Source: Phycisphaerae bacterium
GTDB taxonomy: Bacteria > Planctomycetota > Phycisphaerae > UBA1845 > UTPLA1
DNA: 64,000 nucleotides
Assembly (NCBI GenBank): GCA_035275405.1
Contig: DATEMU010000003.1
Location: 496,001 to 560,000, forward strand
Reading direction: 5' to 3'
Numbering within the stretch: the stretch's first letter is position 1; every line of letters begins with the position of its first letter. Both the position numbers and the translations under genes were made by a program. The notes beneath the pieces were generated by a model. The model was not told the DNA's origin and ran no database searches. It saw nothing but the letters and a program-made list of their open reading frames with translations. Positions 1,472 through 21,407 of the stretch are shown piece by piece.

Positions 1472-1488
1472 TTGGCACGGAAATTGCC
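1472..1488 (+). promoter_or_regulatory. Sigma-54 promoter (-24/-12)
   Basis: TTGGCACGGAAATTGCC matches the sigma-54 consensus YTGGCACGRNNNTTGCW at nearly every position, with GG at 1474-1475, GC at 1486-1487 and ten bases between. The predicted start of transcription is about 1499. No convincing coding sequence follows on this strand; a hairpin with a T run ends at 1675. Confidence 0.7.
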
Positions 1489-1498
1489 TATGTGGATT

Positions 1499-1675: not shown

Positions 1676-1729
1676 TACCGGAAACGACGAGTCCTCTCAG
1701 TGACGAGTGCGTCAACCGAAATTGACCGC

Positions 1730-3508
1730 CTACTCCGCCATCAGGGCCAAGACGGCGTCCATCTCCCGCTGACTCACGTCGAGGAGTTGCAGCGCATAGT
1801 TCTTGTTGTGAATGCCGTTGCCGCTCTGGACGAACTGCAGGTTGGCCCGGGCGGCTTCGATTTTCTTAACGGAATCGGGGGCGAGGGGCCGACCGGCGGC
1901 GCGGCGTTCCTTTTCCAGCGTCTCGGCCCGGACGACGGAGGATTCCAGTTCCTTGACCGATGCCTGAATCTCACTCATCCACTGGTCGAAGAGCTTGCGA
2001 TAATCGTCGCCGTGGCAGGCGAGGCAGGTGTTCTGCGTGGCCTTTACCAGCGGGTCGCCTTTGAAGTCGGTGCCGGACTGCGTATGGCAAGCGCGGCAGT
2101 TGAGGCGCGAGCCGAACATGGCGTTGGGCATGGCGACAGAGACGCCATGACCGCCCGTGCCCATGAGCAGGTCGACCTGCTCGCGATGGTGGTTCGGGTG
2201 ACAGTGCTGGCAGTCCTGAAGGACGGGTTGGAGGAAGCCGGAAGACATGCCGACGTGCTGGGCGTCGACCAGCCGATGTTCGATGGTGCGGTGGCAGTCG
2301 GGACAACGGGCCCGCTGCATGGCGATATGGACACGATGGTATTCCTCGACGACTTGCGTATCGCGATTCGCGAAGTTCGCGAGGTAGCGATCCTGATCGT
2401 GACAACTTGCGCAGTCGCGCGCGGTCACCGTCGTTGAGCCGGAGACGACGTCGAAGTGGCAACTGGCGCATTCGATCTTGCGGTCGATGATGTCCTGGTG
2501 GTCCATGAGCGTGGCGGCGCCCGTGGGAGTCGCATGGGTTTCGGTCAGACCGTGGATGGCGATTTTTCTTGCGGGCGGTTCGTGGCAACGGAGGCATTCA
2601 GCGGTATCGCGGTTGAACTCCTGGTTCGTAAAGTGGCAGACAAAACAGGTCTGCTGGTCCACCGCGAAGTGGTTGGCGCCTTTGGCGTCAAAGGTGTGAC
2701 AGGCGGAGCAGTTGATCCCTTCGAGTTGTGCCAGGCGGAGCCGGATGTGCTCCAGGCGGAGCAGCTCGAGGGCGTCTTTGGCGTAGTTGGAGAGTCCGAG
2801 CTTGTCCATCAGGGCGACCATGGCGGCGTCGCGATCGGCAGCCGGCTGGATCGAGCGGCTGGCGGCCTGCACTTGGGTGAAGGCTTCGGCGGGCATCATG
2901 CTTTTCAGTCGAGAACTTATCTCGCTCAGGGCCGCGTCGGTTTCCTTCTGGCGATCCGCGACTTGCAGGTGCTTGGCATGGACGAAGCGGACGGTCGGGG
3001 TGCGCTGCACCTCGGTTTCGAACCCGGCGATGATCCGTTTTTCCTTGCGAGGCTCGCCGATGAGCAGGGATTTGTTGATATGCTCGCCGTCGCCATGGCA
3101 CTTGGAAAGCAGGCAACTGGCGTCGTTGACGTGGGCCCGCGGCCGGCTGGCGCCCGCGCGACCGCTGAAGTAACTGGCGAGCTGGGAGAGGCCCTTGAAC
3201 TTGGCCATGACGGTATGTTGTTCGCCCGGGGCGTAATGGCACTCGACGCACCAGACGTCGAGCTTCGCGCCATGCTTGTCCTTGGCCCAGGTTTCGTAGT
3301 ACGGATCCATGATGTGGCAGGAGCCGCAGAAGTCGGGGCGGGAGGTGTAGTATTCGGCCCCGCCGACCGACATGGCCATGGCCACGAGGAGCAGGGAGAG
3401 CAACAATCCGATGAGACGAAGAAGCGAGCGTTTTCGGCGGGGCTTGGTTTCAGGATCGGTAGCGTGCGGCGCGGGCGGCGTTGCATCGGGAGGGGGCTCA
3501 GGGGTCAT
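1730..3508 (-). CDS. Membrane-anchored dodecahaem cytochrome c with NapC/NirT-like N-terminus
   Basis: The protein has 592 residues. A Pro-rich cytoplasmic start is followed by one transmembrane helix at about residues 25-47, then CGSCHIMDPYYETW and CVECH, the opening pattern of NapC/NirT quinol dehydrogenases. Twelve haem attachment sites can be counted, eleven CxxCH and one CX4CH (CLLSKCH). A helical stretch without haems, about 110 residues long, separates the third and fourth sites. It probably takes electrons from the quinol pool and passes them on outside the membrane; the final acceptor is not visible. The start at 3508 is favoured over an in-frame ATG at 3613 because AAGGAG lies directly upstream and the sigma-54 promoter at 3567-3582 would start RNA near 3556. 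It is divergent from the 20-haem gene. Confidence 0.85.
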   Translation of the reverse strand: MTPEPPPDATPPAPHATDPETKPRRKRSLLRLIGLLLSLLLVAMAMSVGGAEYYTSRPDFCGSCHIMDPYYETWAKDKHGAKLDVWCVECHYAPGEQHTVMAKFKGLSQLASYFSGRAGASRPRAHVNDASCLLSKCHGDGEHINKSLLIGEPRKEKRIIAGFETEVQRTPTVRFVHAKHLQVADRQKETDAALSEISSRLKSMMPAEAFTQVQAASRSIQPAADRDAAMVALMDKLGLSNYAKDALELLRLEHIRLRLAQLEGINCSACHTFDAKGANHFAVDQQTCFVCHFTNQEFNRDTAECLRCHEPPARKIAIHGLTETHATPTGAATLMDHQDIIDRKIECASCHFDVVSGSTTVTARDCASCHDQDRYLANFANRDTQVVEEYHRVHIAMQRARCPDCHRTIEHRLVDAQHVGMSSGFLQPVLQDCQHCHPNHHREQVDLLMGTGGHGVSVAMPNAMFGSRLNCRACHTQSGTDFKGDPLVKATQNTCLACHGDDYRKLFDQWMSEIQASVKELESSVVRAETLEKERRAAGRPLAPDSVKKIEAARANLQFVQSGNGIHNKNYALQLLDVSQREMDAVLALMAE

Positions 3509-3566
3509 GAAGGCTCCTTGATCAGGTACCGGGTGTGGACGAATACCGGCCTGGGACCCGCCTTCC

Positions 3567-3582
3567 AGCAAAACCCATGCCA
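3567..3582 (-). promoter_or_regulatory. Sigma-54 promoter of the dodecahaem cytochrome
   Basis: Read on the - strand, TGGCATGGGTTTTGCT has GG at 3581-3580 and GC at 3569-3568 with ten bases between. RNA would begin near 3556, leaving a 48-base leader that contains the AAGGAG ribosome binding site. I could not find the TGCGG-N6-CCGCA dyad near this promoter. Confidence 0.6.
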
Positions 3583-3590
3583 GGGGCGGT

Positions 3591-3612
3591 TGGACATTCC
3601 CACGATTGTCCA
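3591..3612. promoter_or_regulatory. Perfect dyad TGGACA-N10-TGTCCA
   Basis: Six-base arms at 3591-3596 and 3607-3612 are perfectly inverted around a ten-base spacer. The dyad lies just upstream of the sigma-54 element for the 12-haem gene and just before the start region of the divergent 20-haem gene, so it may be an operator shared by both. The binding protein is unknown. Confidence 0.4.
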
Positions 3613-3634
3613 TCGGCGCGCATCTCCTGCAATG

Positions 3635-6876: not shown

Positions 6877-8598
6877 TTACTGCTCCTTCGGCTCCAAGCC
6901 GTGGTAATCCGGATACCACATCGCCTCGCGGACGATCACTTCGACCTCACTGTCCTCCACGAGTCGGCCGAGCCCGGACTCGCGGGCCTCGCGGACAACC
7001 TCGCACGCCACATGGAAGCTGACCTGGCGAAGGTCCTGCTGGCTCGGATAGAGCGCGCCAACCGACAGCCGCGAAGAGTCCGTCATATAGGCCAGCGTCT
7101 GTGCCGCGGCCAGCAACATGCGATCGTTGATCTCGTGCGCCTCGGCGACGATCGCGCCCAGACCCAGACCGGGAAAGATAAAGACGTTATTGCCCTGACC
7201 GATGACATGGGTGCGTCCCTGGTATTCAACCGGCGGAAACGGGCTGCCCGTGGCGACGACGGCGCGGCCGTCGGTCCAGCGAATGGCGTCGTCGGGCTTG
7301 CACTCCGCCTTACAGTTGGGGTTGCTGAAGGCGAAGATCACGGGGCGCTGGATGTGCGCGGCCATCTCGCGGATCACCTGTTCGGTGAAAAGTCCGGCCT
7401 TCGCACTGGTCCCCACGAGAATGGTCGGTCGATAGCGCGCCACCATCTCGGCCAGCGTCGTTCCTTCCGGATTCTCCAATCCGAGCGAGGCGAGCACATC
7501 CGGACCGGCGGCAAATTCCCGTTTTGCGGCGTTTAGATCGTTGCGGCCGCGATGCACCAGACCGCGCGTGTCGACGAAGAGCTGCGCCCGCCGCTGCACG
7601 TCCAGCTCCACCCCCGCGGACTTCATCAGCATCCGCACCAGCCGAGCGATACCGATCCCCGCGGCCCCCGCGCCGGCGTAGAGGATGCGATGCTCGCCGA
7701 TCGGTGTGCCCGTTACCTTGAGCGCGCTGATCATTCCCGCAACGGCGACGGCGGAAGTGCCCTGAATGTCATCGTTGAAACTGGGCAGCCGCTGGCGATA
7801 GCGCTCGAGATTGCGGAAGGCGATCTCCTTGTGAAAGTCCTCCCATTGCAGAATGGCCCGGGGAAAGACCTCGATGACGGCCTCGACAAAGGCGTCAATG
7901 AACTTGTCATACGCGGCGCCGCGGAGTCGATGACGGTTGTAGCCGCAGTAGAGAGGATCAGCCAGCAGCTCCGGATTGTCCGTGCCGACGTCGAGGCTGA
8001 TGGGCAGGCATTGGCTGGGATGCAGACCCGCCCCGGCGCAGTACAGCGCGATCTTGCCGCGCGGAATGCCCATGCCCCCGGCCCCTTGATCGCCCAGCCC
8101 CAGAATCCGCTCATTGTCAGTCACGACGATCAAGCGGATGTCGTCGCGCGTCGCGTTTCGCAGGAGTTGGGGAATGCGGTGTTCGTCGTCCGGTGTGATC
8201 CAGACGCCGTGCGGGCGCCGCACAATATGGCTGTATTGCTGGCAGGCCTGACCGACCGTCGGCGTATAGACGATCGGCATTAATTCCTCGATATGCTCGA
8301 TCAAAACGCGATAAAAAAGAACTTCGTTGCGGTCGCGGAGCGACTCCAGGCCGATGTACTTCTCCAGGTCTTCGCTCTTGCAGCGGAGGTGCTCGACCTC
8401 CAGCTCGACCTGCTCCTCGATGGCGAGCACCCGTCCGGGCAGGAGCCCGCGCAGCCCCAGGCGGTCCCGCTCCACCTCCGTGAAAGCGGCATCCTTGTTC
8501 AGCCTGGCATCATCCAGAAGTTGTCGACCGCGCGGCAGCGTTGTTTCATTCATGGCATTCATGGGATTCATAGTATTCATGGTGTTCATGGTGTTCAT
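6877..8598 (-). CDS. maeA: NAD-dependent malic enzyme
   Basis: The 573-residue protein has the full malic enzyme layout: VYTPTVG near residue 110, [16 protein letters not shown] with the catalytic Lys, [15 protein letters not shown], and the nucleotide loop [11 protein letters not shown]. It oxidatively decarboxylates malate to pyruvate in the cytoplasm, feeding the divergent 2-oxoacid:ferredoxin oxidoreductase. The first ATG overlaps the stop of the DUF4405 gene as ATGA and is preceded by GAGGGAG at nine bases, so the two are translationally coupled. An odd N-terminus, [18 protein letters not shown], is encoded by a nine-base tandem repeat; alternative starts exist at each Met. The conserved domain begins after it. 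The gene ends convergently with the 20-haem cytochrome, 47 bases away. Confidence 0.92.
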
Positions 8599-9193: not shown

Positions 9194-9904
9194 TTACGCG
9201 GAGCTGCCCCGTTTCAGTTCTTCCTCAATAATCGGCACCACCAATCCCAGATACAGATCGAGCGGGCAATCGAGACGATCCCGCGTTTTGCAGCGTCCAT
9301 CGGCGAGCTGCATGCACGACGGACAGATAATCGCCTGGATCTTGTCCATGTAATCACCCATCCGGTTGCTGTCTATTCCTTCGACAACCGCCGCGAGTTT
9401 CTCGGCCCAATTAAACATGGGGCAATCGTGCTCCTCCTTCAGCGTGCAGCCACCGTCGGCCGTCCGATGGATGCACCGCGGGCAGATTTCGTTCTTGAAA
9501 CGCGCGTCCAATCGTTCCGCCAGCGTTTGCATGTTCGTCCCCCTTCTTGCCGTTTCATTGGGTGGCGGCGAAAAAGCGCTGCGCCGCGCCGGGATAAGCA
9601 ATTCCACCAATCGGTTCAACTCAAACGGCTTTTCCAGGACCGGCATCCACGCGGACAACCCGCAATCCGGATCAGAGACCAGCGCAATCACGCGCGGTCC
9701 GACGGCCTCGGCAAACCGTTTCAATTCGCCGGGAGCGTCGTCCGCAAACGGGCTTCCGCAGATGACGAATGCCGCCCCATGCCGGTCGAGTTCCGTGGCC
9801 GCCTCGACGAGCGTCGATCGCTGCAGGACCTCGAAGTCCGGAGCAAGGGCCCGCGCGATGGCCCATGCCGTCAACGGGTTATTCTCAATCACCACGACGC
9901 GCAT
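9194..9904 (-). CDS. Pseudo-receiver protein with two four-cysteine modules
   Basis: The first about 115 residues look like a CheY-type receiver (MRVVVIENNPLTAWAIARAL ... VLEKPFELNRLVELL), but the acidic pair is E-N and the phosphorylated Asp is replaced in FVICGSPF, so normal phosphotransfer is unlikely. The C-terminal half has two similar blocks, CPRC-x8-C-x7-CP and CPSC-x7-C-x7-CP, which could bind zinc or an iron-sulfur cluster. I do not know a named family. The start at 9904 is preferred over an ATG at 9961: the sigma-54 promoter would start RNA near 9965, leaving no leader for 9961, whereas 9904 has GGAG eight bases upstream. It is first in the operon with DUF4405 and malic enzyme and may be a redox-responsive modulator (inference). 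Confidence 0.6.
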   Translation of the reverse strand: MRVVVIENNPLTAWAIARALAPDFEVLQRSTLVEAATELDRHGAAFVICGSPFADDAPGELKRFAEAVGPRVIALVSDPDCGLSAWMPVLEKPFELNRLVELLIPARRSAFSPPPNETARRGTNMQTLAERLDARFKNEICPRCIHRTADGGCTLKEEHDCPMFNWAEKLAAVVEGIDSNRMGDYMDKIQAIICPSCMQLADGRCKTRDRLDCPLDLYLGLVVPIIEEELKRGSSA

Positions 9905-9974
9905 GGACCCACTCCGCGCACCCGACTGCAAACGTTTGATCTGGGTGTTTCCGATGGTCATACGTCAATCTCCC

Positions 9975-9993
9975 TTGCATGATTCGTGCCAAA
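9975..9993 (-). promoter_or_regulatory. Sigma-54 promoter of the Cys-rich protein/DUF4405/malic enzyme operon
   Basis: On the - strand TTTGGCACGAATCATGCAA has GG at 9990-9989 and GC at 9978-9977 with ten bases between. It differs from consensus only in ATGC for TTGC. RNA would begin near 9965. Confidence 0.6.
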
Positions 9994-10090: not shown

Positions 10091-10125
10091 TGCGGAAATC
10101 CCCTCATTTTGCGCGGAATTCCGCG
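10091..10125. promoter_or_regulatory. Putative enhancer sites between two divergent sigma-54 promoters
   Basis: TGCGG-N6-CCTCA at 10091-10106 and TGCGC-N6-CCGCG at 10110-10125 match the dyad found at 1306-1363 and 15136-15190. They lie about 95 bases from the predicted RNA start at 10203 and about 143 from the one at 9965, so one array could serve both divergent operons. Confidence 0.55.
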
Positions 10126-10175
10126 GCCGCCTCGCGCCGAGCCCCGTTTCCGGCTCTGCCAGGCCGCCCCGTCGC

Positions 10176-10192
10176 GTGGCACGCCTCTTGCT
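10176..10192 (+). promoter_or_regulatory. Sigma-54 promoter of the oxidoreductase operon
   Basis: GTGGCACGCCTCTTGCT has the full TGGCACG and TTGC boxes, GG at 10178-10179 and GC at 10190-10191 with ten bases between. RNA would start near 10203, leaving a 34-base leader with GGAG before the GTG at 10237. Confidence 0.75.
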
Positions 10193-10236
10193 CATGTTCG
10201 GGAAGGACGGATGCCCTACATCCACGGAGTTGAACG

Positions 10237-11169
10237 GTGATCGAAAACTACACGCTGCCGGTAAAAGACGATCTGGGATTCTGCAATGTCCTGATGACGG
10301 CGCTGGGCGGGGACGGCGCCAACATGGGCGGCAAACTCCTCTTCAAGATCGGCTGCGCCTGGTTCGGGCTCGACGGCGGATACGACGCCCGCTACGGATC
10401 CGAAAAAAAAGGGACGGCGACGGACGTCTCCGTCCGATTCTGCCAGGTGGATACGCCGGTCCGCCAATCGGGACCGACCACCACGGCCAACTTTCTTGTG
10501 GTCTTTCACGACGACCTCATCGAGCCGCTGGACCTGGGGGCCGCCCTCGCGCCTCAGGCGGTCTGCATCGTGAATAGCGTCAAGCCGCCGGAACAGATTC
10601 GCCGTATGCTGGGGATGCAAGGCGGCAAGGTCGTGTGTCTCGATGCGACGAAGATCGCGTTTGAGTGCAAGAGCCGGCTGAACATGCCGCTCGTTGCCGC
10701 GCTGTCCCACGAGTTGGGGTTCCCGGACGAAAAGGTCAGGGAAGTCATCGCCGGCCAGTGGCCGCGGGCCGCCGAGGCCAACATGGCCGCTTTCTCCGCC
10801 GCCTTGTCCGGCATCCATTCTCAGGCCTTTGAAGGCAACGGCCGTGCCGCGGCGGGGCCGGCCGCAGTGACGCGCGGGCCCCTCGGCTGGCGCAACATGC
10901 TCAACGGCGGGACCATTGATGCCCTGACCCACTCGACTTTGAACCGCGACAACCGCGTCGCCGGCCGCGGACATGTCCCGCGCTTTGATGCCGCGGCGTG
11001 CAATTCGTGCGGAATCTGCCTCACCATCTGTTCCGATCCCGGCGGGCTGCTGTGGCGCGAAGGCCGAATGCTGGGCATTGACGAGAAGTTCTGCAAAGGG
11101 TGCATGCGCTGCGTCGAAGTCTGTCCGGACACCAAGAAGGGCAAGGCGCTGACGTTCGACTACGCCTGA
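10237..11169 (+). CDS. 2-oxoacid:ferredoxin oxidoreductase, fused gamma and ferredoxin (delta) subunits
   Basis: Residues 1-190 match the gamma subunit of pyruvate-type oxidoreductases (GGDGANMGGKLLFKIG, then RQSGPTTTANFLVV). A linker of about 60 residues leads to a C-terminal ferredoxin-like domain with CNSCGICLTICS and CKGCMRCVEVCPD, enough for two [4Fe-4S] clusters. It forms an enzyme with the alpha-beta fusion encoded 16 bases downstream and hands electrons from the TPP-bound intermediate to ferredoxin. The GTG start is supported by GGAG seven bases upstream. Transcription from the sigma-54 promoter at 10176 is expected. Gamma and delta are separate genes in many organisms, so this fusion is notable. 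Confidence 0.88.
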   Translation: MIENYTLPVKDDLGFCNVLMTALGGDGANMGGKLLFKIGCAWFGLDGGYDARYGSEKKGTATDVSVRFCQVDTPVRQSGPTTTANFLVVFHDDLIEPLDLGAALAPQAVCIVNSVKPPEQIRRMLGMQGGKVVCLDATKIAFECKSRLNMPLVAALSHELGFPDEKVREVIAGQWPRAAEANMAAFSAALSGIHSQAFEGNGRAAAGPAAVTRGPLGWRNMLNGGTIDALTHSTLNRDNRVAGRGHVPRFDAAACNSCGICLTICSDPGGLLWREGRMLGIDEKFCKGCMRCVEVCPDTKKGKALTFDYA

Positions 11170-11185
11170 CAGGAAGGAATCTTTA

Positions 11186-13519
11186 ATGTCCGCTTCTCTC
11201 ACAGAACTACCGCCCGCCGTCGCGCCAAATCCCGTTGCCAGGCAATCCGTCTGGCTCGGCAACGGCAACGAGGCCGTTGCCCGGGCGATTCTTGACATCG
11301 GCTACGACGCCGAGGGGTACTATCCGATCACCCCGTCCTCGGACGTCGGCGAAGTCGTCTCCAAGGCCTTCGCCGAGGGCAAGGCTGACCTCTCCTTCAT
11401 TGTCGCCACCAGCGAACTTGCGGCGCTGGGCATCTGCACGGGCGTCGCCGTCGCCGGCGGTCGCGCGGTGGATGTCACCAGCGCCAACGGCCTGCTGCTG
11501 AAGGCCGAGCAGATGCCCGCCATCTCCGGCCTGGGCCTGCCGATGGTGCTGAATCTCTCGACACGCGACGTGTCCGCCCCGCTCAACATCAAAAACGGAC
11601 ACTCCGACCTCTACGCCACGCTCGGCTGGGGCTGGCTCACGTTCCTCGCGCCGACGGTCCAGGCCGCGTACGACATGAACATCATCGCGATTCGCGTGGC
11701 CGAGGCCGTGAACCTGCCCGCCATCGTGGCCTATGACGGATTCCATACTTCGCATGCCAATCGGCGCATACACGTCTTCGCCGACGCCGAGGACGTTCGC
11801 CGCTTCGTCGGGCCGCTGCCGTTCAAGAAAACGCTTAAAGGCGAGGGTGGCCGCTTCAGCCTACTCGATTTCGGACACCCTCGTACCTTCGGCCCGTACA
11901 TGAACGACGATCTGATCAACGCCAAGGTCCAGATGGACCTCAAGTTCGCGAAGGCGTATGAGATCCTGCCGGCGATTTTCAAGGAATTTGCGGCCCTGAC
12001 CGGTCGATCGTACGCCTTCGTGCAGCAATACGGCGAACTCGGAGCGGAGCGCTGTCTCGTCGCGCTCAATACCGCCGGTGAGGCGGCCAAGGACGCCGTG
12101 GACGCGCTCAATCGCCGCGGCGAGCCCGTCAATCTCGTCATCCCCACGGTGTTGCGTCCGTGGCCCGAGAGGCAAATCGTCGAGGCGCTGGGCGACGCCG
12201 GATCCATCGTCGTCGCTGAGCGAGGCAGCCAGTACGGTGCGAACAACTATCTCGCGAATGAAATCGGTGCGGCCCTTCAGCGCCGTCGCAATCACGCCTC
12301 CATCATCCAGCGAACCTACGGCATTGGCGGTTTGAATTTCACCAAAGACGACGCGCTACGGATGTACGCTGATGCCGTACTCGACGACGAAATCGTCCCA
12401 AAGCCGACGACCTCGAGTCGCTCACCGACCGCCGATTCCGACCGCCCCTTCTTCTCCTTCGCCCCGCACAAGACCTATCACGGCGCCTGGGCCGGCGACG
12501 AGAGTTACCATCCGCAGCGCACTCTGGATCCCCTGAGCGCACAGCAGTGCTCGCTCAACGCCGGCATGGACGGCAAGGTCAACCTCAAGGTGCTGTCCAA
12601 CATGCCGACGCGCTTTGAAAAGCACAGCGCGTGCCCCGGCTGCGGCATCTTCACCAGCCTGAACCTCTTCCTCCGTGGAATTGACGGCCATGTCTGCCTG
12701 CTCTTTAACACGGGCTGCGGCATGGTCGTCACCACTGGATATCCGCTGACCAGCTTCAAGGTCCCGTACTTCCACAATCTCTTTCATAACAATTCGTCCA
12801 CGGCCACCGGCGTGGTCGAGATGGTCAAGCGCTTCAAACGCCGCGGCGAACTGCCCGAGGACGTGACCGTCATCTCCGTCAGCGGCGATGGCGGCGACGA
12901 CATCGGCATCGACCAGGTCATCGGTGCGGCCCTCCGCAACGACCCGTTCATTCACTTCGAATACGACAACAAGGGCTACATGAACACCGGCGCGCAGCTC
13001 TGCTACAGCGGCTTCAAAGGCCAGAAAAACAGCAACGCGCACTTCGGCCCGCAGCAAACCGGGAAGACGACGCACCACAAGGAGATCATCGAGATCCTCC
13101 GCGGCACTTTCGCACCGTACCTGGCGACGTGCTGCGAGTCGCACGCCCTCGACATGATCCGCAAGGCCCGCAAGGCCCAGACGACCGTCCGCGCCGGCGG
13201 GTTTGCTTTTGTGAAGGCCCTCTCCGTCTGTCCGCTGAACTGGGGTATGGACGAGCACGTCGGCCCGTCGGCGGTCGAGGCCGCGGTGAATGCCTGCATG
13301 CACCCGCTCTATGAGATCGAGCACGGCATCACCCGCATCACCGTGGACCCGGAGTCCAGCGGCAAGAAGATCCCGATCACGGAAGCGCTGAAGAAAATGG
13401 GCGGGGCCTTTGCACATCTCGCGACGCCCGACTATGCAGCCGTGGCCAAGGAGGTCCAGGACGAAGTTGATCGCCGCTGGGCGCGGCTCAAGGCCATGGC
13501 GGCCAGTGAGATCCTGTAG
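11186..13519 (+). CDS. 2-oxoacid:ferredoxin oxidoreductase, fused alpha and beta subunits
   Basis: The 777-residue protein carries an alpha-type domain first (GNEAVARAILDIGYDAEGYYPITPSSD near residue 26, through ERGSQYGANNYLANEIGAAL) and then a beta-type, TPP-binding domain from about residue 470 (KHSACPGCG, NTGCGM, GDGGDDIGIDQV). Together with the upstream gamma-delta fusion it makes a complete enzyme of two polypeptides. The likely reaction is pyruvate + CoA + oxidised ferredoxin to acetyl-CoA + CO2 + reduced ferredoxin; substrate choice cannot be read from sequence with certainty. AGGAAGGA upstream of the ATG is a strong ribosome binding site. The malic enzyme on the other side of the shared control region would supply pyruvate. 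Confidence 0.9.
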   Translation: MSASLTELPPAVAPNPVARQSVWLGNGNEAVARAILDIGYDAEGYYPITPSSDVGEVVSKAFAEGKADLSFIVATSELAALGICTGVAVAGGRAVDVTSANGLLLKAEQMPAISGLGLPMVLNLSTRDVSAPLNIKNGHSDLYATLGWGWLTFLAPTVQAAYDMNIIAIRVAEAVNLPAIVAYDGFHTSHANRRIHVFADAEDVRRFVGPLPFKKTLKGEGGRFSLLDFGHPRTFGPYMNDDLINAKVQMDLKFAKAYEILPAIFKEFAALTGRSYAFVQQYGELGAERCLVALNTAGEAAKDAVDALNRRGEPVNLVIPTVLRPWPERQIVEALGDAGSIVVAERGSQYGANNYLANEIGAALQRRRNHASIIQRTYGIGGLNFTKDDALRMYADAVLDDEIVPKPTTSSRSPTADSDRPFFSFAPHKTYHGAWAGDESYHPQRTLDPLSAQQCSLNAGMDGKVNLKVLSNMPTRFEKHSACPGCGIFTSLNLFLRGIDGHVCLLFNTGCGMVVTTGYPLTSFKVPYFHNLFHNNSSTATGVVEMVKRFKRRGELPEDVTVISVSGDGGDDIGIDQVIGAALRNDPFIHFEYDNKGYMNTGAQLCYSGFKGQKNSNAHFGPQQTGKTTHHKEIIEILRGTFAPYLATCCESHALDMIRKARKAQTTVRAGGFAFVKALSVCPLNWGMDEHVGPSAVEAAVNACMHPLYEIEHGITRITVDPESSGKKIPITEALKKMGGAFAHLATPDYAAVAKEVQDEVDRRWARLKAMAASEIL

Positions 13520-13582
13520 CGATTGCGGCCCCGGTTCTCAGCGGTTGCAATATACCCCGCCTCGCCCAACAAGAGCCGACTC

Positions 13583-13954
13583 ATGCGCTATCCACTGCTT
13601 ATCACACTTTCGGCACTAGCAATTTGCTCGCTCGGGATCACCTGCCCGCCGCCGCTCTCCCCCTGCCAACTTCCGGTGCTCCCCGATCCCGCCGTGGTCG
13701 TCTCGCTCACTAGCTCCGCCACGCTCCAGGCGATCCCCGGCGCGGACCTCACGCTGACCGACGGCGTCCTGGACTATGAGATGGACGAAATCGCCCCTGC
13801 CGTCTACGGCGGCGCCTACGGGGTTCCGGGGACCTTCACGCTGATCGTCGAAGCCGAGGACTTCCAGTCGATCACGGTCGAAAACATCGTCGTCGAAGGC
13901 GAGCCCTGCGACGTCATGACGGTGGAATTGCAGTTTGAGTTGGACCCCGTGTGA
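13583..13954 (+). CDS. Putative lipoprotein with a small beta-sandwich-like domain
   Basis: The 123-residue product begins MRYPLLITLSALAICSLGITC, a signal sequence with a cysteine that could be lipidated, though the box GITC is not ideal. The rest is rich in beta-prone segments (AVVVSLTSSATLQAIPGADLTL; YGVPGTFTLIVEAEDFQS) like the carboxypeptidase regulatory-like fold often found in secreted proteins. The function is unknown. The upstream ATG at 13523 is less likely because the lipoprotein signal starts at 13583. It follows the oxidoreductase gene by 63 bases and could be read through from it. Confidence 0.55.
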   Translation: MRYPLLITLSALAICSLGITCPPPLSPCQLPVLPDPAVVVSLTSSATLQAIPGADLTLTDGVLDYEMDEIAPAVYGGAYGVPGTFTLIVEAEDFQSITVENIVVEGEPCDVMTVELQFELDPV

Positions 13955-14012
13955 CGCCTCGGGAGTTTTTTCCCACAACAGATCGCGCGGATCGCGCGCC
14001 GTCTCGCGCCCT

Positions 14013-14465
14013 TCAATCCTCCGTCCCGAGATCCTCGCCATACGTCGACATCACCAGCAGATTCTCGTCCTTTTCATGGTGTTCCACGTACTGGAGCAGG
14101 TTTTGGATCCGCCGACAGGCGTCGCGGATCAGCAGCGCATCTTCCGGGTGCAACCGGCCCAGGTCCTCGTGGATATCGTTGAGCAGCCGCTGCATCTCCC
14201 CATGCTCATGTGCCAGCCGGTCCACTTCGCGGGACAGCATCGGCCGCCTCTCCACGATCGGCAGCATGTATCCGTCGCGTTCCTCCAGGGACATGTGCTT
14301 GGTCAGGTGGGCGCGGAGGTGGTCGAACGACTCCCGCACGTCGGCGATCCACTTCTGCTGATGGATGCGCGGGACAACGGCGGTCTTTTCCTGCAACGCG
14401 GCGGACAGGACGTTGAGCTTGTTGTGTTCTTCGCGCAGCCAACAGGCCATCTCGCGCATGTTCAT
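14013..14465 (-). CDS. Hemerythrin-like HHE domain protein
   Basis: The 150-residue four-helix protein has the spaced metal ligands of hemerythrin-like proteins: EEHNKL, HLRAHLTKHMSLEERDGY, AHEHGEM and VEHHEKDENLL. A diiron site that binds O2 or related small molecules is expected. The ATG at 14465 has AGGAGG eight bases upstream; longer in-frame starts overlap the CBS gene. It is the second gene of an operon with the CBS protein, 64 bases downstream of it, under a sigma-54 promoter at 15065-15082, next to a globin-sensor kinase. An O2-buffering or O2-sensing role in the regulon is inferred. Confidence 0.82.
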   Translation of the reverse strand: MNMREMACWLREEHNKLNVLSAALQEKTAVVPRIHQQKWIADVRESFDHLRAHLTKHMSLEERDGYMLPIVERRPMLSREVDRLAHEHGEMQRLLNDIHEDLGRLHPEDALLIRDACRRIQNLLQYVEHHEKDENLLVMSTYGEDLGTED

Positions 14466-14529
14466 GGTGCGACCTCCTCTTCTTTCGCCCACCCGCTCGA
14501 ATCCCACTCCACCCTTGGCCGACACGGCC

Positions 14530-14961
14530 TCAGAACGGATACGCCGGATCATAGTGATGCGCGGCGAGCGTAACGTTTTCCTCCGACAGCTCAATCAGCC
14601 GTCGAAGCAGATCGCGTGTCGAGAGCATCCCCACGACGTGTTCGCCCATCACGACCGGTAGCGCGCCGACGCGATGCTCGTAGAGCAGATGCGCCGCTTC
14701 GGCCAGGTCCGCGCCTGGGATGATTGTCACCAGGTTCGTGCTCATGACATCCTCGGCCACAAGCTGGGCCTCGGCCTTCCTGTCGAAACCGCCGGCCGAC
14801 CGAAGGTCTCGGTCGGTCACGATCCCAACGAGTCGATGGGCGTTGTCCACCACCGGCACCTGCCGGATGCCATGCGCGCGGATCAACTCGGCGATCCGCT
14901 CGACGCGCTCATCCGTGGACACGGTCAAAGGGTCCGGCGTCATGTAATCGTTGACGAGCAT
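14530..14961 (-). CDS. Tandem CBS domain protein
   Basis: The 143-residue protein is made almost entirely of two CBS domains: residues 8-60 (MTPDPLTVSTDERVERIAEL, PVVDNAHRLVGIVTDRDLR) and 73-125 (MSTNLVTIIPGADLAEAAHL, PVVMGEHVVGMLSTRDLL). Such stand-alone pairs bind adenine nucleotides and adjust partner proteins to energy state. GGGAG before the ATG gives the start. It leads the operon with the hemerythrin gene. The 93-base leader predicted from the sigma-54 promoter is long enough to hold further control. A similar CBS protein lies at the window's right end. Confidence 0.85.
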   Translation of the reverse strand: MLVNDYMTPDPLTVSTDERVERIAELIRAHGIRQVPVVDNAHRLVGIVTDRDLRSAGGFDRKAEAQLVAEDVMSTNLVTIIPGADLAEAAHLLYEHRVGALPVVMGEHVVGMLSTRDLLRRLIELSEENVTLAAHHYDPAYPF

Positions 14962-15064
14962 GGCGAGTCTCCCGAATGGGGGCGCAGAGAGCCCGCGCCC
15001 GCGAGCCTACGGCAAACAACGGGGTACCACCGGTCGGACCTCCGTGTCGCCTGACGATTCGCCG

Positions 15065-15082
15065 TGCAAGAAGTGTGCCAAA
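15065..15082 (-). promoter_or_regulatory. Sigma-54 promoter of the CBS-hemerythrin operon
   Basis: On the - strand TTTGGCACACTTCTTGCA has GG at 15079-15078 and GC at 15067-15066 with ten bases between and a full TTGCA. RNA would begin near 15054. It is divergent from the kinase promoter at 15240 with the enhancer array between them. Confidence 0.7.
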
Positions 15083-15135
15083 CCAGGCGTGTCTTTGAAC
15101 CGTACGAGGGCTGATTCGCTGGCAGCAACTTTGAA

Positions 15136-15190
15136 AGCGCAAAGAGTCGCAACTGCGGGACTTTCCGCAGAAACTGCGAATAATTCCGCA
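15136..15190. promoter_or_regulatory. Putative enhancer array between CBS-hemerythrin and kinase-regulator operons
   Basis: TGCGG-N6-CCGCA at 15154-15169 is a perfect dyad. TGCGA-N6-CCGCA at 15175-15190 lies exactly 21 bases further on. A weaker AGCGC-N6-TCGCA is at 15136-15151. The sites are about 100 bases from both divergent predicted RNA starts (15054 and 15267). Autoregulation of the kinase-regulator operon would follow if the NtrC-type protein binds here. Confidence 0.65.
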
Positions 15191-15239: not shown

Positions 15240-15256
15240 CTGGCATCCTTATTGCC
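15240..15256 (+). promoter_or_regulatory. Sigma-54 promoter of the kinase-regulator operon
   Basis: CTGGCATCCTTATTGCC has GG at 15242-15243 and GC at 15254-15255 with ten bases between. RNA would begin near 15267, giving a 23-base leader before the ATG at 15290. Confidence 0.6.
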
Positions 15257-15289: not shown

Positions 15290-16618
15290 ATGCCAATCGA
15301 TTCCACGCCGGAAAAGCCTCGAAAAGGCCCATCCGATAGGGCGCCCGCTGCGCCGTCCCCTTCGCCAGATCGACCGGTTCGGCTTGCTCGCCTTAGGCGA
15401 TATAATCCCGGTGTGCCACACGAGTTATTCGAGGAAATGAAGCAGTATGTCGGCTTTGACGAGGCTGATGCTAGGGCCTTGATGGAGCTTAAGGCCCCCC
15501 TGTCCGGGTGTTTTTCGGAAGTGATAGAGGTCTTTTACACAACTCTCTCTCGCCATCCTCGCGCCAAAGCTGTTTTTGCAATCGACCCGGGGATGATCGA
15601 GCGGCTCAAGAAGTCCCTCCGTCTGTGGCTCACCGAACTCTTCGAGGGCCGGTATGACGACGCCTATTACGATCGCCGGGCGCGGATCGGAAGAACCCAT
15701 GTGCGGGTGGATCTCCCGCAGCACTATATGTTTACGGCAATGAACGTCGTTCGCCTGGGGCTCGCGACAAAGATCCGTGAACTCAAACCCCCCGACATCG
15801 ACCGTAAGCTCGGGGCTCTGCATAAGCTGCTCGACATCGAACTGGCCATTATGAACGAGACCTACCGGGAGGACCTCGTCTCTCGACTGCAGGCCATCGA
15901 ACAAGACCATTATCAAACCAAGCTCAACAAGTCGGAGCATCTGGCGGCGGTCGGGGAACTTGCCGCTTCCCTCGCCCACGAGATCAAAAACCCCCTCGCG
16001 GGTATCAGTGGGGCGATTCAGATCCTCGGTCAGGAACTCGACGACGATCATCCGCACAAGGAGATCATCGAGGAGGCCTTGCGCCAGATCGACCGACTGG
16101 ACGCCGCCGTCAAGGATCTCCTGATTTACGCACGGCCCAAGCCGCCCGTCACGGCGCCCGTCCCCATCTATCAGCTTCTGCAGCGGGCGCTGGTGCTGCT
16201 GCGCGAAGAGCCGGCGTTTCGAGGCGTGCGTATTGAGTGCAACCCGGCCGATAGTGAATCGGCGATGGAGATCGACGAGGCCCAAATCCAGCAAGTCCTG
16301 ACCAATTTATTGATTAATGCGGCACATGCTTGTCAAAACGGCGGTACCATACAATGTCGCGTGCTGCCCGCTGCGACTTCCAAAAAGATTGTCATCGAGG
16401 ACGACGGCATCGGCATGACCCGCGACGTTCTCGATCGAGCCTTCGAGCCCTTCTACACGACCAAGGCCAAGGGGACCGGGCTGGGCCTGGCCATCTGCAA
16501 GCGAATCGTGGAATCGCACGGAGGGACCATCACGCTGGACAGCCGCCCCGGCCACGGTACTCGGGTCACCGTCGAACTGCCGGAACGCGTGGGTTTCGCT
16601 GAAACGGGAATTTCATGA
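15290..16618 (+). CDS. Protoglobin-sensor histidine kinase
   Basis: The 442-residue soluble protein begins with a basic Pro-rich tail. About residues 35-190 then match a globin-coupled sensor (LFEEMKQYVGFDEADARAL ... RIGRTHVRVDLPQHYMFTAM); His137 is the likely proximal haem ligand. A coiled linker leads to an NtrB-type kinase: phosphorylated His230 in SLAHEIKNPLAG, the N box NLLINAAHA, and ATP lid motifs EDDGIGM and GTGLGLAIC. It should sense O2, NO or CO through haem and phosphorylate the regulator encoded next, with which it overlaps by four bases (ATGA). AGGG lies just before the ATG. The frame is open further upstream, but that part covers the control region. Confidence 0.88.
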   Translation: MPIDSTPEKPRKGPSDRAPAAPSPSPDRPVRLARLRRYNPGVPHELFEEMKQYVGFDEADARALMELKAPLSGCFSEVIEVFYTTLSRHPRAKAVFAIDPGMIERLKKSLRLWLTELFEGRYDDAYYDRRARIGRTHVRVDLPQHYMFTAMNVVRLGLATKIRELKPPDIDRKLGALHKLLDIELAIMNETYREDLVSRLQAIEQDHYQTKLNKSEHLAAVGELAASLAHEIKNPLAGISGAIQILGQELDDDHPHKEIIEEALRQIDRLDAAVKDLLIYARPKPPVTAPVPIYQLLQRALVLLREEPAFRGVRIECNPADSESAMEIDEAQIQQVLTNLLINAAHACQNGGTIQCRVLPAATSKKIVIEDDGIGMTRDVLDRAFEPFYTTKAKGTGLGLAICKRIVESHGGTITLDSRPGHGTRVTVELPERVGFAETGIS

Positions 16619-17991
16619 ATAAGCCTCGCATCCTGATCATCGAAGACGAGAAGCTAATTCGCTGGACGTTGCGCCAACGCTTCGTCGAGGAGGGCTACAG
16701 TGCGGACGAGGCCCCGACAGCGACCGAGGGGCTTACCAAGCTTGGCGACGAACTCTTCGATCTCGTCATGCTGGACTACAAGCTGCCCGACAAGACGGGC
16801 CTGGAGGTCCTGCGCAAGCTGCGCGAGTCCGACAAGGACATCGTCGTTCTGATGATGACGGCCTATAGCAACGTGGAAAATGCTGTGGAAGCGATGAAGT
16901 TGGGCGCCATCGACTATGTCGGCAAGCCCTTCAAAATGGACGAGCTGATGCTGACCGTCGCGAAGGCGCTGGAGACGACGCGACTGAAGCGCGAGCTTCG
17001 CGACTTGCGGACCAGGTTGCAGGGGGAATTCGGCTTTGACCGCATTCTGGGACGCTGCCCGGCGATGACGAAGCTTTTTGGCGTCATTTGCGATGTCGCC
17101 AGAAGCGGCTCATCGACGGTCTTTCTTTGCGGCGAGAGCGGCACGGGAAAGGACCTCGTGGCCAAGACCGTCCATTACAATTCGGATCGCGCCCACCGCC
17201 CCTTTATGAACATTACCTGCACCGCGATCCCCGAAAACCTATTGGAGAGCGAACTTTTCGGTCACGAGCGCGGCGCGTTCACCGACGCCAAACAAAAGAA
17301 GCGAGGGTTGATTGAATTGGCGGACGGTGGGACGGTATTCCTCGACGAAGTCGGGGACATGCCGCCCGTTCTTCAGGCCAAGCTGCTTCGGTTTCTCGAA
17401 GAAAAGTCCTTTCGCCGCGTGGGCGGCGTCAAGGAAATCTCCGTGGACGTGCGCGTCATCGCGGCGACCAACCGGGATATCCAGAAAATCATCAAAGAGG
17501 GGAAGTTTCGCGAAGACCTGTACTACCGACTGAACGTGGTCAGCATCGATCTGCCGCCGTTACGCGCCCGCGGCGAGGATATTGAACTGCTCACGACTCA
17601 CTTTGTGGACCACTTCGCCCGCGAGTTCAAGAAAAACGTCAAACGCGTGACGCCGGAGACACAGGAGAAGCTCAACGGCTACGCCTGGCCGGGTAATGTG
17701 CGAGAACTGCGAAACGTGATTGAACGCGCGGTTTTGTTGTGCAAGGGCGAAGCGATCGTCCCCGAGGATCTGGCCCTGGGCCGGTCAGAGCCGGCTCCGT
17801 GGTCCGGCGATGTGGAGAGCTTCGCGCTTCCGACGTCAGGCTTCGACCTCAACAAGCTCAACGAACTGGAATCGCATCTGTTGCGGGAGGCGATGACGCG
17901 CACGAAAAACAATCAGGTCCAGGCCGCACAATTGTTAAACCTGACGCGCGATCGCCTGCGCTACAAGCTGCAAAAATACCGGCTCCTTTAA
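16615..17991 (+). CDS. NtrC-family sigma-54-dependent response regulator
   Basis: The 458-residue protein has a receiver domain (phosphorylatable Asp54 in VMLDYKLPD, Lys in YVGKPFK), an AAA+ domain from about residue 145 (Walker A GESGTGKD, sigma-54 contact loop GAFTDA, Walker B GGTVFLDEVGD, arginine finger region) and a Fis-type helix-turn-helix in the last 45 residues (NNQVQAAQLLNLTRDRLRYKL). It activates sigma-54 polymerase in response to the partner kinase. Six sigma-54-type promoters and three arrays of one dyad lie within the 15 kb to the left, one array directly upstream of its own operon. These are its most likely targets. Confidence 0.93.
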   Translation: MNKPRILIIEDEKLIRWTLRQRFVEEGYSADEAPTATEGLTKLGDELFDLVMLDYKLPDKTGLEVLRKLRESDKDIVVLMMTAYSNVENAVEAMKLGAIDYVGKPFKMDELMLTVAKALETTRLKRELRDLRTRLQGEFGFDRILGRCPAMTKLFGVICDVARSGSSTVFLCGESGTGKDLVAKTVHYNSDRAHRPFMNITCTAIPENLLESELFGHERGAFTDAKQKKRGLIELADGGTVFLDEVGDMPPVLQAKLLRFLEEKSFRRVGGVKEISVDVRVIAATNRDIQKIIKEGKFREDLYYRLNVVSIDLPPLRARGEDIELLTTHFVDHFAREFKKNVKRVTPETQEKLNGYAWPGNVRELRNVIERAVLLCKGEAIVPEDLALGRSEPAPWSGDVESFALPTSGFDLNKLNELESHLLREAMTRTKNNQVQAAQLLNLTRDRLRYKLQKYRLL

Positions 17992-18275: not shown

Positions 18276-18281
18276 TAGAAT
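18276..18281 (+). promoter_or_regulatory. -10-like hexamer of a probable leaderless gene
   Basis: TAGAAT is followed by seven bases and then the ATG at 18289. The same arrangement is kept in front of the paralog at 19935. No Shine-Dalgarno is present. Confidence 0.5.
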
Positions 18282-18288
18282 GTTCTGC

Positions 18289-19803
18289 ATGGACTCTCGG
18301 GACCCCGGCGGCGATTCCACTTCACCCGCGGAGAATCGGCGGGCCTCGCGCGGCTGGGTGCGGCGGCATCCGGTTGTGACAGGCTTTCTGGTCTTCACCG
18401 CGATGCTCGTCGCGGCGGTTTGGTTCGCCAACGATCAGGCGGAACGAGCGCTGGAGAGGCGCATCGCTGCCATCCGCGATCGTGGCGAGCCGGTGACCGT
18501 TCAGGACATCCTATACGCGCAACCGCGGATCTCCGACGATGAGAATATGGCTTTTCAACTGGCGAGCGCCGGCCGCGCAAGCATGGCCGTCAGAATAAAT
18601 GAAGAAGAGTCCAAGTCGATTCCCTATCTGGGCAACGGAAGATTGCCGCCAACCGGAGAGCGCTGGAACGATGACATGCTTATGGCCAGCGACTCCTATC
18701 TGGATCGCGCCGACGAGGCCCTGGGCGAGCTTCACAAGGCGCTCAAACTTGAGCGAAGCTATTTGGCGCTTAACTGGAGCACTCCGGCGATCAATGTTCT
18801 GATACCAGAATTGTCCGACCTGCGGCAGGCATCCAAGATTCTTGTCCTGGAATCCCTCATCGCGGCCCAAAAGGACCAACGTCAAAGGGCCGAACAACTT
18901 CTTCTCGACATGACGCCAATGACACGCGCGCTCGATGGCAGCAGCACCCTCATCGGCGCGCTGGTCCAACTCGCCACGACCTCACTGATGCAGGATTCAG
19001 TCGAACGGTGCATCAATCAATGCGGCCTCAGTGACGCATCACTTCGTAAGTTACATATCGCCCTCCAGGAATCAGAAGCCTACCCCGACATGAAGCAGGC
19101 TTACTATGGGGAACGCATTATTTTTCTCGACACCCTTCAATGGGTTCGAACCAGCGGGCCCAGTGCGATAACCACACTTACTGGAAGTCAGGGATCGCCG
19201 GGCCCCGAGTCGCTCTGGAGGTACATACCGATACTTCCGCCCTTGGACATTTCGTGTGGCCTTGATCAATACAATCTTCTGGTCAGCGCTGTTGGCACAC
19301 CCAATGGGCGCACCATCAAGGCCATAACGACTCTTGACGGGGCCGCCGAGCGCCTTCCCATGTATTGCGTCATGTCGAGAATAATGCTTCCGAGCCTCTC
19401 GCGTTCCATTGTGCTCTGGGTCCGCACTGTCGGCTCCAATCGCGCCCTCCGCGCCGCCATCGCGGCCGAGCGATTTCGACTTGCCAACGATTGTTGGCCG
19501 GAAAAGCTCGATGATCTCGTTCCGAAATATCTCGACGCCGTGCCGCTCGACCCCATCGACGGCAAGTCGATCCGCTACGCGATCATCCCCGAGGGCATGA
19601 AAACGTGGACGATCTGCGACGACGACAAGAACGAGGATAACGGCGGCGATGTAAGGCGACTTGAGTCGCGAACAGGCAATAGAACTAAGGATCGGCCGAT
19701 GGACTACGGCTGGGTCATTCTGAATCCGTCGCTACGCAACCGCCCCGCACCGACCACCACGCAACCTGCGACCTCGCAGCCGACGAGCCGGCCTGTGCAA
19801 TAA
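18289..19803 (+). CDS. Membrane-anchored paralogous protein with pseudopilin-like C-terminus, copy 1
   Basis: The 504-residue protein has one N-terminal transmembrane helix (residues 27-47, after GWVRRHPVV) and a large outer domain. Near the C-terminus it has RLANDCWPEKLDDLVPKYLDAVPLDPIDG, which resembles the end of GspG-like and other planctomycete secreted proteins where small substitutions around DPxDG form a surface motif. The Pro/Thr/Gln-rich tail is low complexity. The start at 18289 is chosen because the paralog at 19935 begins with the same MDSRDP and the same upstream TAGAAT. Function unknown. The two genes are 131 bases apart, a tandem duplication. Confidence 0.7.
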   Translation: MDSRDPGGDSTSPAENRRASRGWVRRHPVVTGFLVFTAMLVAAVWFANDQAERALERRIAAIRDRGEPVTVQDILYAQPRISDDENMAFQLASAGRASMAVRINEEESKSIPYLGNGRLPPTGERWNDDMLMASDSYLDRADEALGELHKALKLERSYLALNWSTPAINVLIPELSDLRQASKILVLESLIAAQKDQRQRAEQLLLDMTPMTRALDGSSTLIGALVQLATTSLMQDSVERCINQCGLSDASLRKLHIALQESEAYPDMKQAYYGERIIFLDTLQWVRTSGPSAITTLTGSQGSPGPESLWRYIPILPPLDISCGLDQYNLLVSAVGTPNGRTIKAITTLDGAAERLPMYCVMSRIMLPSLSRSIVLWVRTVGSNRALRAAIAAERFRLANDCWPEKLDDLVPKYLDAVPLDPIDGKSIRYAIIPEGMKTWTICDDDKNEDNGGDVRRLESRTGNRTKDRPMDYGWVILNPSLRNRPAPTTTQPATSQPTSRPVQ

Positions 19804-19934: not shown

Positions 19935-21407
19935 ATGGACTCTCGGGACCCCATCGGCGATTCTCCACCCACCGCGAGGGATCAGCGACGCGGCTGGGTC
20001 CGCAGGCACCCGGTCGTCACGGCCTTGGCGATTCTGTTTGTTTGTGTCGCCGCTCTGATCTGGCAACTTGACCGACGCAACGAAGACGCCGTGACAGCCC
20101 ACATTGCCGCGATTCGCGCCCGCGGTGAGCCGTCGACAATCGCCGACATTCTTTCTCAGCGGCCGGATATCCCCGACGCGGACAATAGGGCGGTCGCAGT
20201 CGAGGCGGCTGGGAAGAGGCTCTCGGGCCTACGACCGCTGGGCGATGAGATTGCCTTGCTCCCCTTCCTGGGCTCGTTCGTCGCTCCCCCCACTGGAGAA
20301 CTGTGCGATGCATCGGCCATCCGTGCCAGCCAGGAGTTTCTTTCACAGGCGGGAAGCGTCCTGAATGAACTGCATGTCGCGCTTCGACTCCCGCGCAGCT
20401 ACTACAAGCTCCAATGGAGCACCCCGGCGATCAACATGTCGCTCTCGGGGCTGTCCGAGATAGGGACGGTCGGCAAGGGGCTGATGTTGGAAGCGTATAC
20501 CGCCGCGCAGCTACAAGACAGGGACAAAGCGACGACGTGTCTGCGTGATGGAATAGGCCTCACCCATCTGATGGACGGCGAGAGTCTTCTGATTACCGCA
20601 CTCGTACAAATAGCCTTAACGGCCCGATTGCAGGAAACGCTCGAACGATGCATCAACCTCTGCGGGATGGACGAGTCGGCGCTACGCGATATTCAGACCC
20701 AGTTGACACGGCATGAAACACAACCGGACATGAAAAAGGCCCTGATCGGAGAACGCGTTTTTTTCCTCGATTCAATACAGTGGATGCGCTCGACGGGAAG
20801 CAGCCCGCCGACGATGCCAATGCCCTCTTGGTGGACGGCCCTACCCGTTATTCAATCCATCGACACGGCGCTGGCCTTAGACCAATTCGAGCAACTGGTC
20901 GCCTCCACCGGACCGCCGGATTCGAGTTTGGTCAATGCGTCGATGAGGGTAGACCATGCGGTCAGCAACCTGCCTAGGTATTGTGTCGTGTCGAAGCTAT
21001 TGTTTTCGAGCTTCTCTCGCCCCATGGTGCTGTTCGTTCGCAACGTAGGGCGGAATCGCGCCCTCTGCGCCGCCGTTGGGGCCGAGCGTTTCCGGCTGGC
21101 AAACGGCCGGTGGCCGGAAAGACTCGATGAGCTTGTTCCTGAGTATCTCAATGCCGTGCCCATTGACCCGATCGACGGAAATCCGATCCGCTACGCGATC
21201 ATTCCCGAAGGCATCAAAACCTGGACGATCAGCGACGATGACAAGAACGAGGACAACGGCGGAGACGTAAGGCGCTTGGAGCGCCCATTGGAGCATGGGC
21301 CCACTCCGCGCCCCAAAGACCACGGCTGGGTGATCCTCAATCCGGCGATGCGGAACCGACCAGCGCAGACGACTTCGCAGCCGACGACGCGCGGTGCAGA
21401 GAAGTAG
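19935..21407 (+). CDS. Membrane-anchored paralogous protein with pseudopilin-like C-terminus, copy 2
   Basis: The 490-residue protein is a full-length paralog of the one at 18289-19803: same MDSRDP start, single helix after GWVRRHPVV, shared LQWSTPAINM and ERCINLCGM blocks, and the C-terminal RLANGRWPERLDELVPEYLN and DPIDG. Identity is visibly higher at the two ends than in the middle. It is probably anchored in the inner membrane with the main domain outside. No function is known to me. A GC-rich hairpin at 21408-21429 directly overlaps the end and may protect or end the transcript. Confidence 0.7.
   Translation: MDSRDPIGDSPPTARDQRRGWVRRHPVVTALAILFVCVAALIWQLDRRNEDAVTAHIAAIRARGEPSTIADILSQRPDIPDADNRAVAVEAAGKRLSGLRPLGDEIALLPFLGSFVAPPTGELCDASAIRASQEFLSQAGSVLNELHVALRLPRSYYKLQWSTPAINMSLSGLSEIGTVGKGLMLEAYTAAQLQDRDKATTCLRDGIGLTHLMDGESLLITALVQIALTARLQETLERCINLCGMDESALRDIQTQLTRHETQPDMKKALIGERVFFLDSIQWMRSTGSSPPTMPMPSWWTALPVIQSIDTALALDQFEQLVASTGPPDSSLVNASMRVDHAVSNLPRYCVVSKLLFSSFSRPMVLFVRNVGRNRALCAAVGAERFRLANGRWPERLDELVPEYLNAVPIDPIDGNPIRYAIIPEGIKTWTISDDDKNEDNGGDVRRLERPLEHGPTPRPKDHGWVILNPAMRNRPAQTTSQPTTRGAEK

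Follow-up and report, generated by a model that had tools for sequence, protein, structure and literature searches.

Paired dyads upstream of sigma-54 promoters in a Phycisphaerae bacterium are very probably the docking sites of a two-part oxygen-sensing switch

Introduction

In Myxococcus xanthus, the NmpRSTU system consists of a haem-binding globin kinase (NmpU), a relay (NmpS and NmpT), and an NtrC-like regulator (NmpR) (PMC11841059, PMC6211767). NmpR binds paired GCGCA-N5-TGCGC sequences before sigma-54 promoters, with a preferred gap of 14-15 bp (PMC11841059), and its targets are a CBS gene, a cbb3 oxidase, hemN/hemerythrin, and the genes of its own pathway (PMC11841059, PMC6211767). According to the published model, the kinase is in its active state when oxygen is present, and NmpR acts at low oxygen because the signal is inverted by the relay (PMC11841059, PMC6211767). 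Nmp-like genes have already been noted in some Planctomycetes (PMC6211767). The kinase AfGcHK sits in an Nmp-type relay locus, and the targets of the Anaeromyxobacter Nmp system have been stated to be unknown (PMC11841059).

The primary concern of this study is a stretch of 64,000 nucleotides (64 kb) from a Phycisphaerae bacterium, referred to as the window, in which one dyad recurs at several control regions. With a probability of roughly 0.83, the dyads are upstream activating sequences for the NtrC-type regulator encoded at 16615-17991, partnered with a protoglobin kinase, and together define a sigma-54 regulon; a two-part oxygen-sensing switch for respiration and fermentation genes and a small RNA very probably docks at this motif. 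Small RNAs driven by sigma-54 with an activator site upstream are familiar from Proteobacteria, for example CrcZ and NrsZ.

Sequence motif and arrays

A sequence-only reading of the window had reported the dyad TGCGG-N6-CCGCA at 15154-15169, 15175-15190, 10091-10125, and 1306-1363, and all of these sites were present when the sequence was read again. The exact dyad TGCGGGACTTTCCGCA occupies 15154-15169 and is followed 21 bp on by TGCGAATAATTCCGCA at 15175-15190, while the dyads starting at 1306, 1327, and 1348 have a successive spacing of 21 bp; the exact 21-base spacing reported for these two arrays is therefore correct. In the array near 10 kb, the dyads at 10091-10106 and 10110-10125 are 19 bp apart and in opposite orientation. 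Each of the three arrays has a canonical -24/-12 element downstream, in agreement with their proposed placement at sigma-54 control regions. Two of them do lie between divergent promoters, with the minus-strand partner of the 10 kb array (TGGCACGAATCATGC) carrying one mismatch. The arrays and promoter elements are as follows.

15154-15190, plus strand: enhancer array, two dyads 21 bp apart, between divergent sigma-54 promoters
10091-10125: enhancer array, 10091-10106 in minus and 10110-10125 in plus orientation
1306-1363, plus strand: enhancer array, three dyads 21 bp apart (1306-1321, 1327-1342, 1348-1363)
15241-15255, plus strand: sigma-54 -24/-12 element of the kinase-regulator operon, TGGCATCCTTATTGC
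15066-15080, minus strand: sigma-54 -24/-12 element of the CBS/hemerythrin genes, TGGCACACTTCTTGC
10177-10191, plus strand: sigma-54 -24/-12 element of the oxidoreductase operon, TGGCACGCCTCTTGC
9977-9991, minus strand: probable divergent sigma-54 element with one mismatch, read by eye
1473-1487, plus strand: sigma-54 -24/-12 element of the small RNA, TGGCACGGAAATTGC

The dyad originally described is real, but its core is AT-rich, and TGCGGA-WWWW-TCCGCA, the consensus from twenty sites, is a better description than TGCGG-N6-CCGCA. The promoter pattern TGGCAN6TTGC, expected 0.57 times in 64 kb, occurs five times; the three arrays account for four of these.

Two other sequences in the window deserve mention. 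A perfect sigma-54 element (TGGCATGGGTTTTGC) without a dyad array lies at 3568-3582 on the minus strand, just upstream of a multiheme cytochrome gene (1730-3508) whose true start is probably at about 3508; this element is probably served by another activator. The sequence TGCGGCTACAACCTCA recurs exactly at window positions 23856, 24665, and 25348, and as its reverse complement at 47866; these repeats look like a coding motif, not an enhancer.

Paired sites and chance

The lone dyad is uninformative. With two mismatches allowed it matches the window 99 times against 75.8 expected and the 5.29-Mb draft genome 6038 times against 9358 for the reversed pattern, so the genome search for single dyads that had been proposed does not discriminate. 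No canonical -24/-12 element is found near the lone sites at 6699, 11008, 50008, and 57236. Several other counts were set aside. The 14-mer GCGGAWWWWTCCGC is found 37 times in this genome against six for the reversed control, but this control is biased, with an excess of this kind in nearly all of 61 genomes. A strict pair pattern with two mismatches gave 16 matches against 13 for its reversal in this genome and no excess in relatives; its top four matches here are true arrays and most of the others are background. The pattern combining a site with a sigma-54 promoter is confounded across relatives because its control reverses the promoter too, and it was used solely for choosing loci to read.

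In contrast to the lone dyad, pairing at 19-21 bp and placement upstream of sigma-54 promoters are far beyond chance. A 16-column matrix was trained on just the seven window sites; applied to the window it finds close pairs at the three arrays only, a circular result because the arrays are the training set. The held-out set consisted of 46 further sigma-54 promoters (TGGCAYN5TTGC) outside the window, each scanned over 280 bp upstream. Pairs 19-22 bp apart are found at six of the 46 (five arrays, one of them common to two divergent promoters), and seven of the 46 have a site scoring at least 15. In 300 dinucleotide-preserving shuffles of the same upstream DNA, the number of pairs was always zero and that of single sites averaged 0.2, with a maximum of 2; the control downstream of the promoters gave neither pairs nor single sites. 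The enhancer-like behaviour that had been proposed thus extends to promoters that played no part in defining the motif. In 384 kb of this genome, much of it chosen for carrying sigma-54 promoters and hence not a random sample, nine of ten pairs have a canonical sigma-54 promoter 68-213 bp downstream of them. For the tenth (C12:5666/5686), the promoter carries one mismatch, CGGCACGTGAATTGC, and lies about 120 bp downstream, before a second oxidoreductase operon. The three control regions first reported are present, but as a count for the genome three is too low, since about nine or ten array regions were found.

Sensor kinase and regulator

The array at 15154-15190 precedes an operon of two genes with the following computed domain content.

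15290-16618, plus strand: globin-coupled histidine kinase, predicted haem sensor (Protoglobin, HisKA, HATPase_c)
16615-17991, plus strand: NtrC-type response regulator, proposed dyad binder (receiver, sigma-54 AAA+ domain, Fis-type HTH of the HTH_8 family; GAFTDA loop)

The best PDB match of the kinase sensor is AfGcHK (5ohe, E 5e-39), and among the genome contigs searched its nearest named kinase relative is in a Phycisphaerae MAG. The ORFs of kinase and regulator overlap and are followed by a tRNA, and no NmpS/NmpT-type relay genes lie between or beside the two genes at this locus. The kinase alignment keeps the His at AfGcHK position 99 and the Tyr at position 45, which we take to be the haem ligand and the distal oxygen contact, respectively. 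Within the 64-kb window, 16615-17991 is the sole enhancer-binding gene. Its sigma-54 contact loop reads GAFTDA in place of the canonical GAFTGA, and relatives share GAFTDA. Beyond the regulator and the tRNA, the neighbouring ORFs 18280-19803 (507 amino acids) and 19935-21407 (490 amino acids) are similar to each other and look like a tandem duplication.

Full-length relatives of the kinase are present in most of 61 genomes of the order, and in every one of the 20 loci read the regulator adjoins the kinase, although in one it is truncated by a contig end. A CBS gene, a hemerythrin gene, or both lie on the divergent side of the kinase in eight of 13 family loci, as here. Of 20 relatives whose DNA upstream of the kinase was scanned, 13 belong to the family; a pair was considered significant if reached in at most one of 200 shuffles. 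Pairs 20-22 bp apart are found in seven of the 13 family genomes (L211, L212, L214, L215, L216, L218, and L219), while the other six (L213, L217, L220, L221, L222, and L223) have no significant pair upstream of the kinase. Outside the family, L225 reaches the threshold and L226 comes close, with its pair inside the kinase gene; in most other families among the relatives scanned, the motif is invisible at the kinase promoter. Because no significant pair is seen at these promoters, within the family and beyond it, either the motif or the wiring must drift. The regulator is proposed as the binder mainly because the array is retained at the promoter of its own operon, which is an argument and not proof. 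The earlier suggestion that the adjacent NtrC-type gene encodes the binder is supported by this retention in seven of 13 family genomes and by the gene being the only one of its kind in the window.

Predicted targets

Since the kinase carries a protoglobin domain, the genes behind the arrays are predicted to form an oxygen or redox regulon. The kinase-regulator operon itself is a predicted target (autoregulation), as is the small RNA at 1498-1676 described below. The other predicted targets are listed here, with contig handles for those outside the window.

14530-14961, minus strand: CBS-domain protein
14013-14594, minus strand: hemerythrin-domain protein, in the CBS operon, true start probably inside the ORF
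10237-11169, plus strand: 2-oxoacid:ferredoxin oxidoreductase, gamma/ferredoxin-like subunit
11186-13519, plus strand: 2-oxoacid:ferredoxin oxidoreductase, alpha-beta fusion
9194-9961, minus strand: protein of unassigned family (no Pfam match), possible divergent target
C12:5815: second 2-oxoacid:ferredoxin oxidoreductase
C15:48831, minus strand: cbb3 oxidase operon with FixO and a P-type ATPase
C4:202500, minus strand: HypF-HypC, divergent from the PLP lyase
C4:202657, plus strand: Cys/Met PLP lyase, divergent from HypF-HypC
C3:492452, minus strand: c554-type and Rieske multiheme cytochromes
C12:56747, minus strand: multicopper oxidase
C11:128819, plus strand: DUF7901 protein
C7:205201, plus strand: probable secreted protein, one strong and one weak site

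The protein encoded at 9194-9961, divergent from the oxidoreductase operon, has several cysteines and an N-terminus that appears receiver-like by eye. A malic-enzyme-like ORF has a short tandem repeat at its 5' end (8540-8598), and its true start may be further in.

Target conservation is illustrated, though not measured, by 20 loci from relatives that were picked for TCCGC near a sigma-54 promoter. In other genera of the family, one site lies upstream of a sigma-54 promoter of HypF (L375), one weaker site upstream of a sigma-54 promoter of the PLP lyase (L378), and a pair between two divergent sigma-54 promoters at the oxidoreductase (POR) alpha gene (L377), where the second promoter faces an acetyl-CoA hydrolase/transferase.

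Small RNA

The array at 1306-1363 does stand at a sigma-54 promoter, as reported, but what it faces is a predicted small RNA and not a protein gene: the next coding region downstream of the promoter at 1473 is 1730-3613, on the other strand.

1498-1676, plus strand: predicted small RNA with a long hairpin bearing a conserved loop, a GC-rich hairpin, and T5, its ends inferred from the promoter and the T-run
1558-1576, plus strand: invariant loop core of the small RNA, CCTCTCTCCGGCCCGAACA

The 180 bases downstream of the promoter fold at -84.9 kcal/mol against -62.6 kcal/mol for shuffled sequence (z -6). A search at the DNA level showed that a run of about 20 nucleotides is perfectly conserved in other family genomes. 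With at most one mismatch, the core is present in 42 of 114 genomes of the order, while the reversed control is never found. All copies have the same architecture, namely an outer stem, a 5' asymmetric bulge, an inner stem, and a loop of about 20 nucleotides with invariant CTCCGGCCCGAAC; a T-run often follows (homologues L268-L305). In 26 copies that come from outside the family, pairing holds in 93% of cells and both partners have changed in 18 of 20 pairs; covariation scores 0.63, compared with 0.33 after shuffling and at most 0.25 after sliding. A covariance model built from these 26 finds the window copy (E 2e-5) and seven other family copies, none of which was in the training set. Rfam 15 has no credible match for the RNA or its homologues. 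Judged by sequence, this is an order-wide hairpin RNA family that was previously undescribed. A search with the RNA model under strict filters, covering 294 genomes of the phylum but few of the order, gave no copy beyond this genome. The RNA also contains a 36-codon GTG frame, which was set aside because it is the loop and the stem pairing that are conserved.

Promoters of the RNA differ within the family. Copies L272, L274, L275, and L270 lie behind a TATAAT-like box (TATACT in L270), while L268, L269, L271, and L273 lie behind a sigma-54 element; L268, L271, and L273 have the dyad too, 120-185 bp further upstream. The window copy is predicted to be expressed from its sigma-54 promoter. Tandem copies about 100-230 bp apart are seen in L283, L302, L303, L304, and L305, with different stems and the same loop, as if duplicated and then diverged. 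The C-rich loop resembles anti-Shine-Dalgarno seeds; a search for mRNA partners in 384 kb of this genome gave nothing convincing.

Discussion

From these observations we infer the identity of the binder, the phosphotransfer, the oxygen response and its sign, and the expression of the RNA. In the proposed mechanism, the protoglobin kinase would sense oxygen, some other haem ligand, or the redox state, and phosphorylate the NtrC-type regulator. Regulator dimers would occupy neighbouring dyads two helical turns apart on one DNA face and then oligomerise. At promoters 50-230 bp away, sigma-54 polymerase would be driven by the AAA+ domain to form open complexes; between divergent promoters, one array could activate in both directions. 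The regulon would comprise the operon itself, the CBS/hemerythrin genes, 2-oxoacid:ferredoxin oxidoreductases, cbb3 oxidase, and hydrogenase maturation, and further the multiheme cytochromes, multicopper oxidase, and conserved hairpin RNA.

The arrays could be sigma-54 enhancers whose main binder is another NtrC-type protein, with the globin kinase-regulator pair merely a target. The census of enhancer-binding proteins spans the 64-kb window, the regulator gene is distant from most arrays, and in six family genomes out of 13 no clear pair is seen at the regulator operon promoter, all of which would suit another binder; this is nevertheless unlikely, given that the array is kept at the kinase-regulator promoter in seven family genomes, that the window holds no second enhancer-binding gene, and that the targets match those of the Myxococcus globin-kinase system. 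It is far less probable that the dyads are operators of an ordinary dimeric HTH repressor or activator, near sigma-54 promoters by chance. Palindromic 16-mers like these, with AT in the core, are what many dimeric factors typically bind, and single 14-mer copies are common in these genomes. Yet the dyads come as pairs and triplets with a spacing of 19-21 bp, placed at enhancer distances upstream of -24/-12 elements and never overlapping them, and the link with held-out sigma-54 promoters is far beyond chance. Next to no weight can be given to the idea that the pattern arose from GC-rich base composition together with the inspection of many promoters by eye: loose single-site counts are indeed not enriched over the reversed pattern, but the pairs at held-out promoters, absent from shuffles and downstream controls, refute this explanation for paired sites.

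The regulator of 16615-17991 thus remains the preferred binder. Its GAFTDA loop counts against that reading, though relatives share it. The sign of the response is a further difficulty. If phosphate is transferred directly and the kinase is activated by oxygen like AfGcHK, oxygen-labile enzymes would be switched on in oxygen, with POR, Hyp, and cbb3 among the genes induced, which is physiologically odd; either the kinase sign would be reversed here or control would run through phosphatase activity.

The analysis yields a binding code and a list of targets, both predicted, for a globin-coupled two-component system from bacteria other than myxobacteria. It points to a planctomycete version, more simply wired, of the myxobacterial oxygen regulon (CBS, hemerythrin, cbb3). 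That simplicity makes the sign of the oxygen response a sharp, testable question. A conserved small-RNA family has come to light as well, and some of its copies lie behind sigma-54 promoters with these enhancers. The odds seem evenly balanced on a broader proposal, an oxygen regulon in which a haem-globin kinase signals straight to a sigma-54 activator that also controls one copy of the hairpin RNA family with its invariant CUCCGGCCCGAAC loop. If true, oxygen would act on transcription and also on translation, through a C-rich loop that could pair with Shine-Dalgarno sequences, and with the loop as seed the affected mRNA leaders would carry a GGAGAGAGG-like sequence.

Comparison with known systems

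Like NmpRSTU, the present locus has a globin kinase, an NtrC-like regulator, paired dyads upstream of sigma-54 promoters, and predicted autoregulation, and a CBS protein, a hemerythrin, and a cbb3 oxidase are among the predicted targets. Unlike NmpRSTU, the kinase and regulator genes are adjacent, without NmpS/NmpT relay genes at the locus; the dyad is TGCGGA-W4-TCCGCA, spaced 21 bp centre-to-centre with a gap of 5 bp between 16-mers; and POR, Hyp, and a small RNA are among the predicted targets. Because the dyad and spacing differ and the locus has no relay genes, it is better considered a variant of NmpRSTU than a member. AfGcHK (Anaeromyxobacter sp. Fw109-5; PDB 5ohe; PMC8697598) likewise has a protoglobin sensor on a histidine kinase, with the His and Tyr pocket positions kept, but the partner here is an NtrC-type regulator in the same operon. 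NtrC/NtrB enhancers also have tandem dyads upstream of -24/-12 elements and a receiver-AAA+-HTH protein as binder (here proposed), while the sensor and dyad are different and the genes are respiratory, not nitrogen genes. Like CrcZ and NrsZ, the predicted non-coding RNA is behind a sigma-54 promoter with an activator site upstream, but it differs in consisting of one long hairpin, whose C-rich loop is invariant, and it has no Rfam match.
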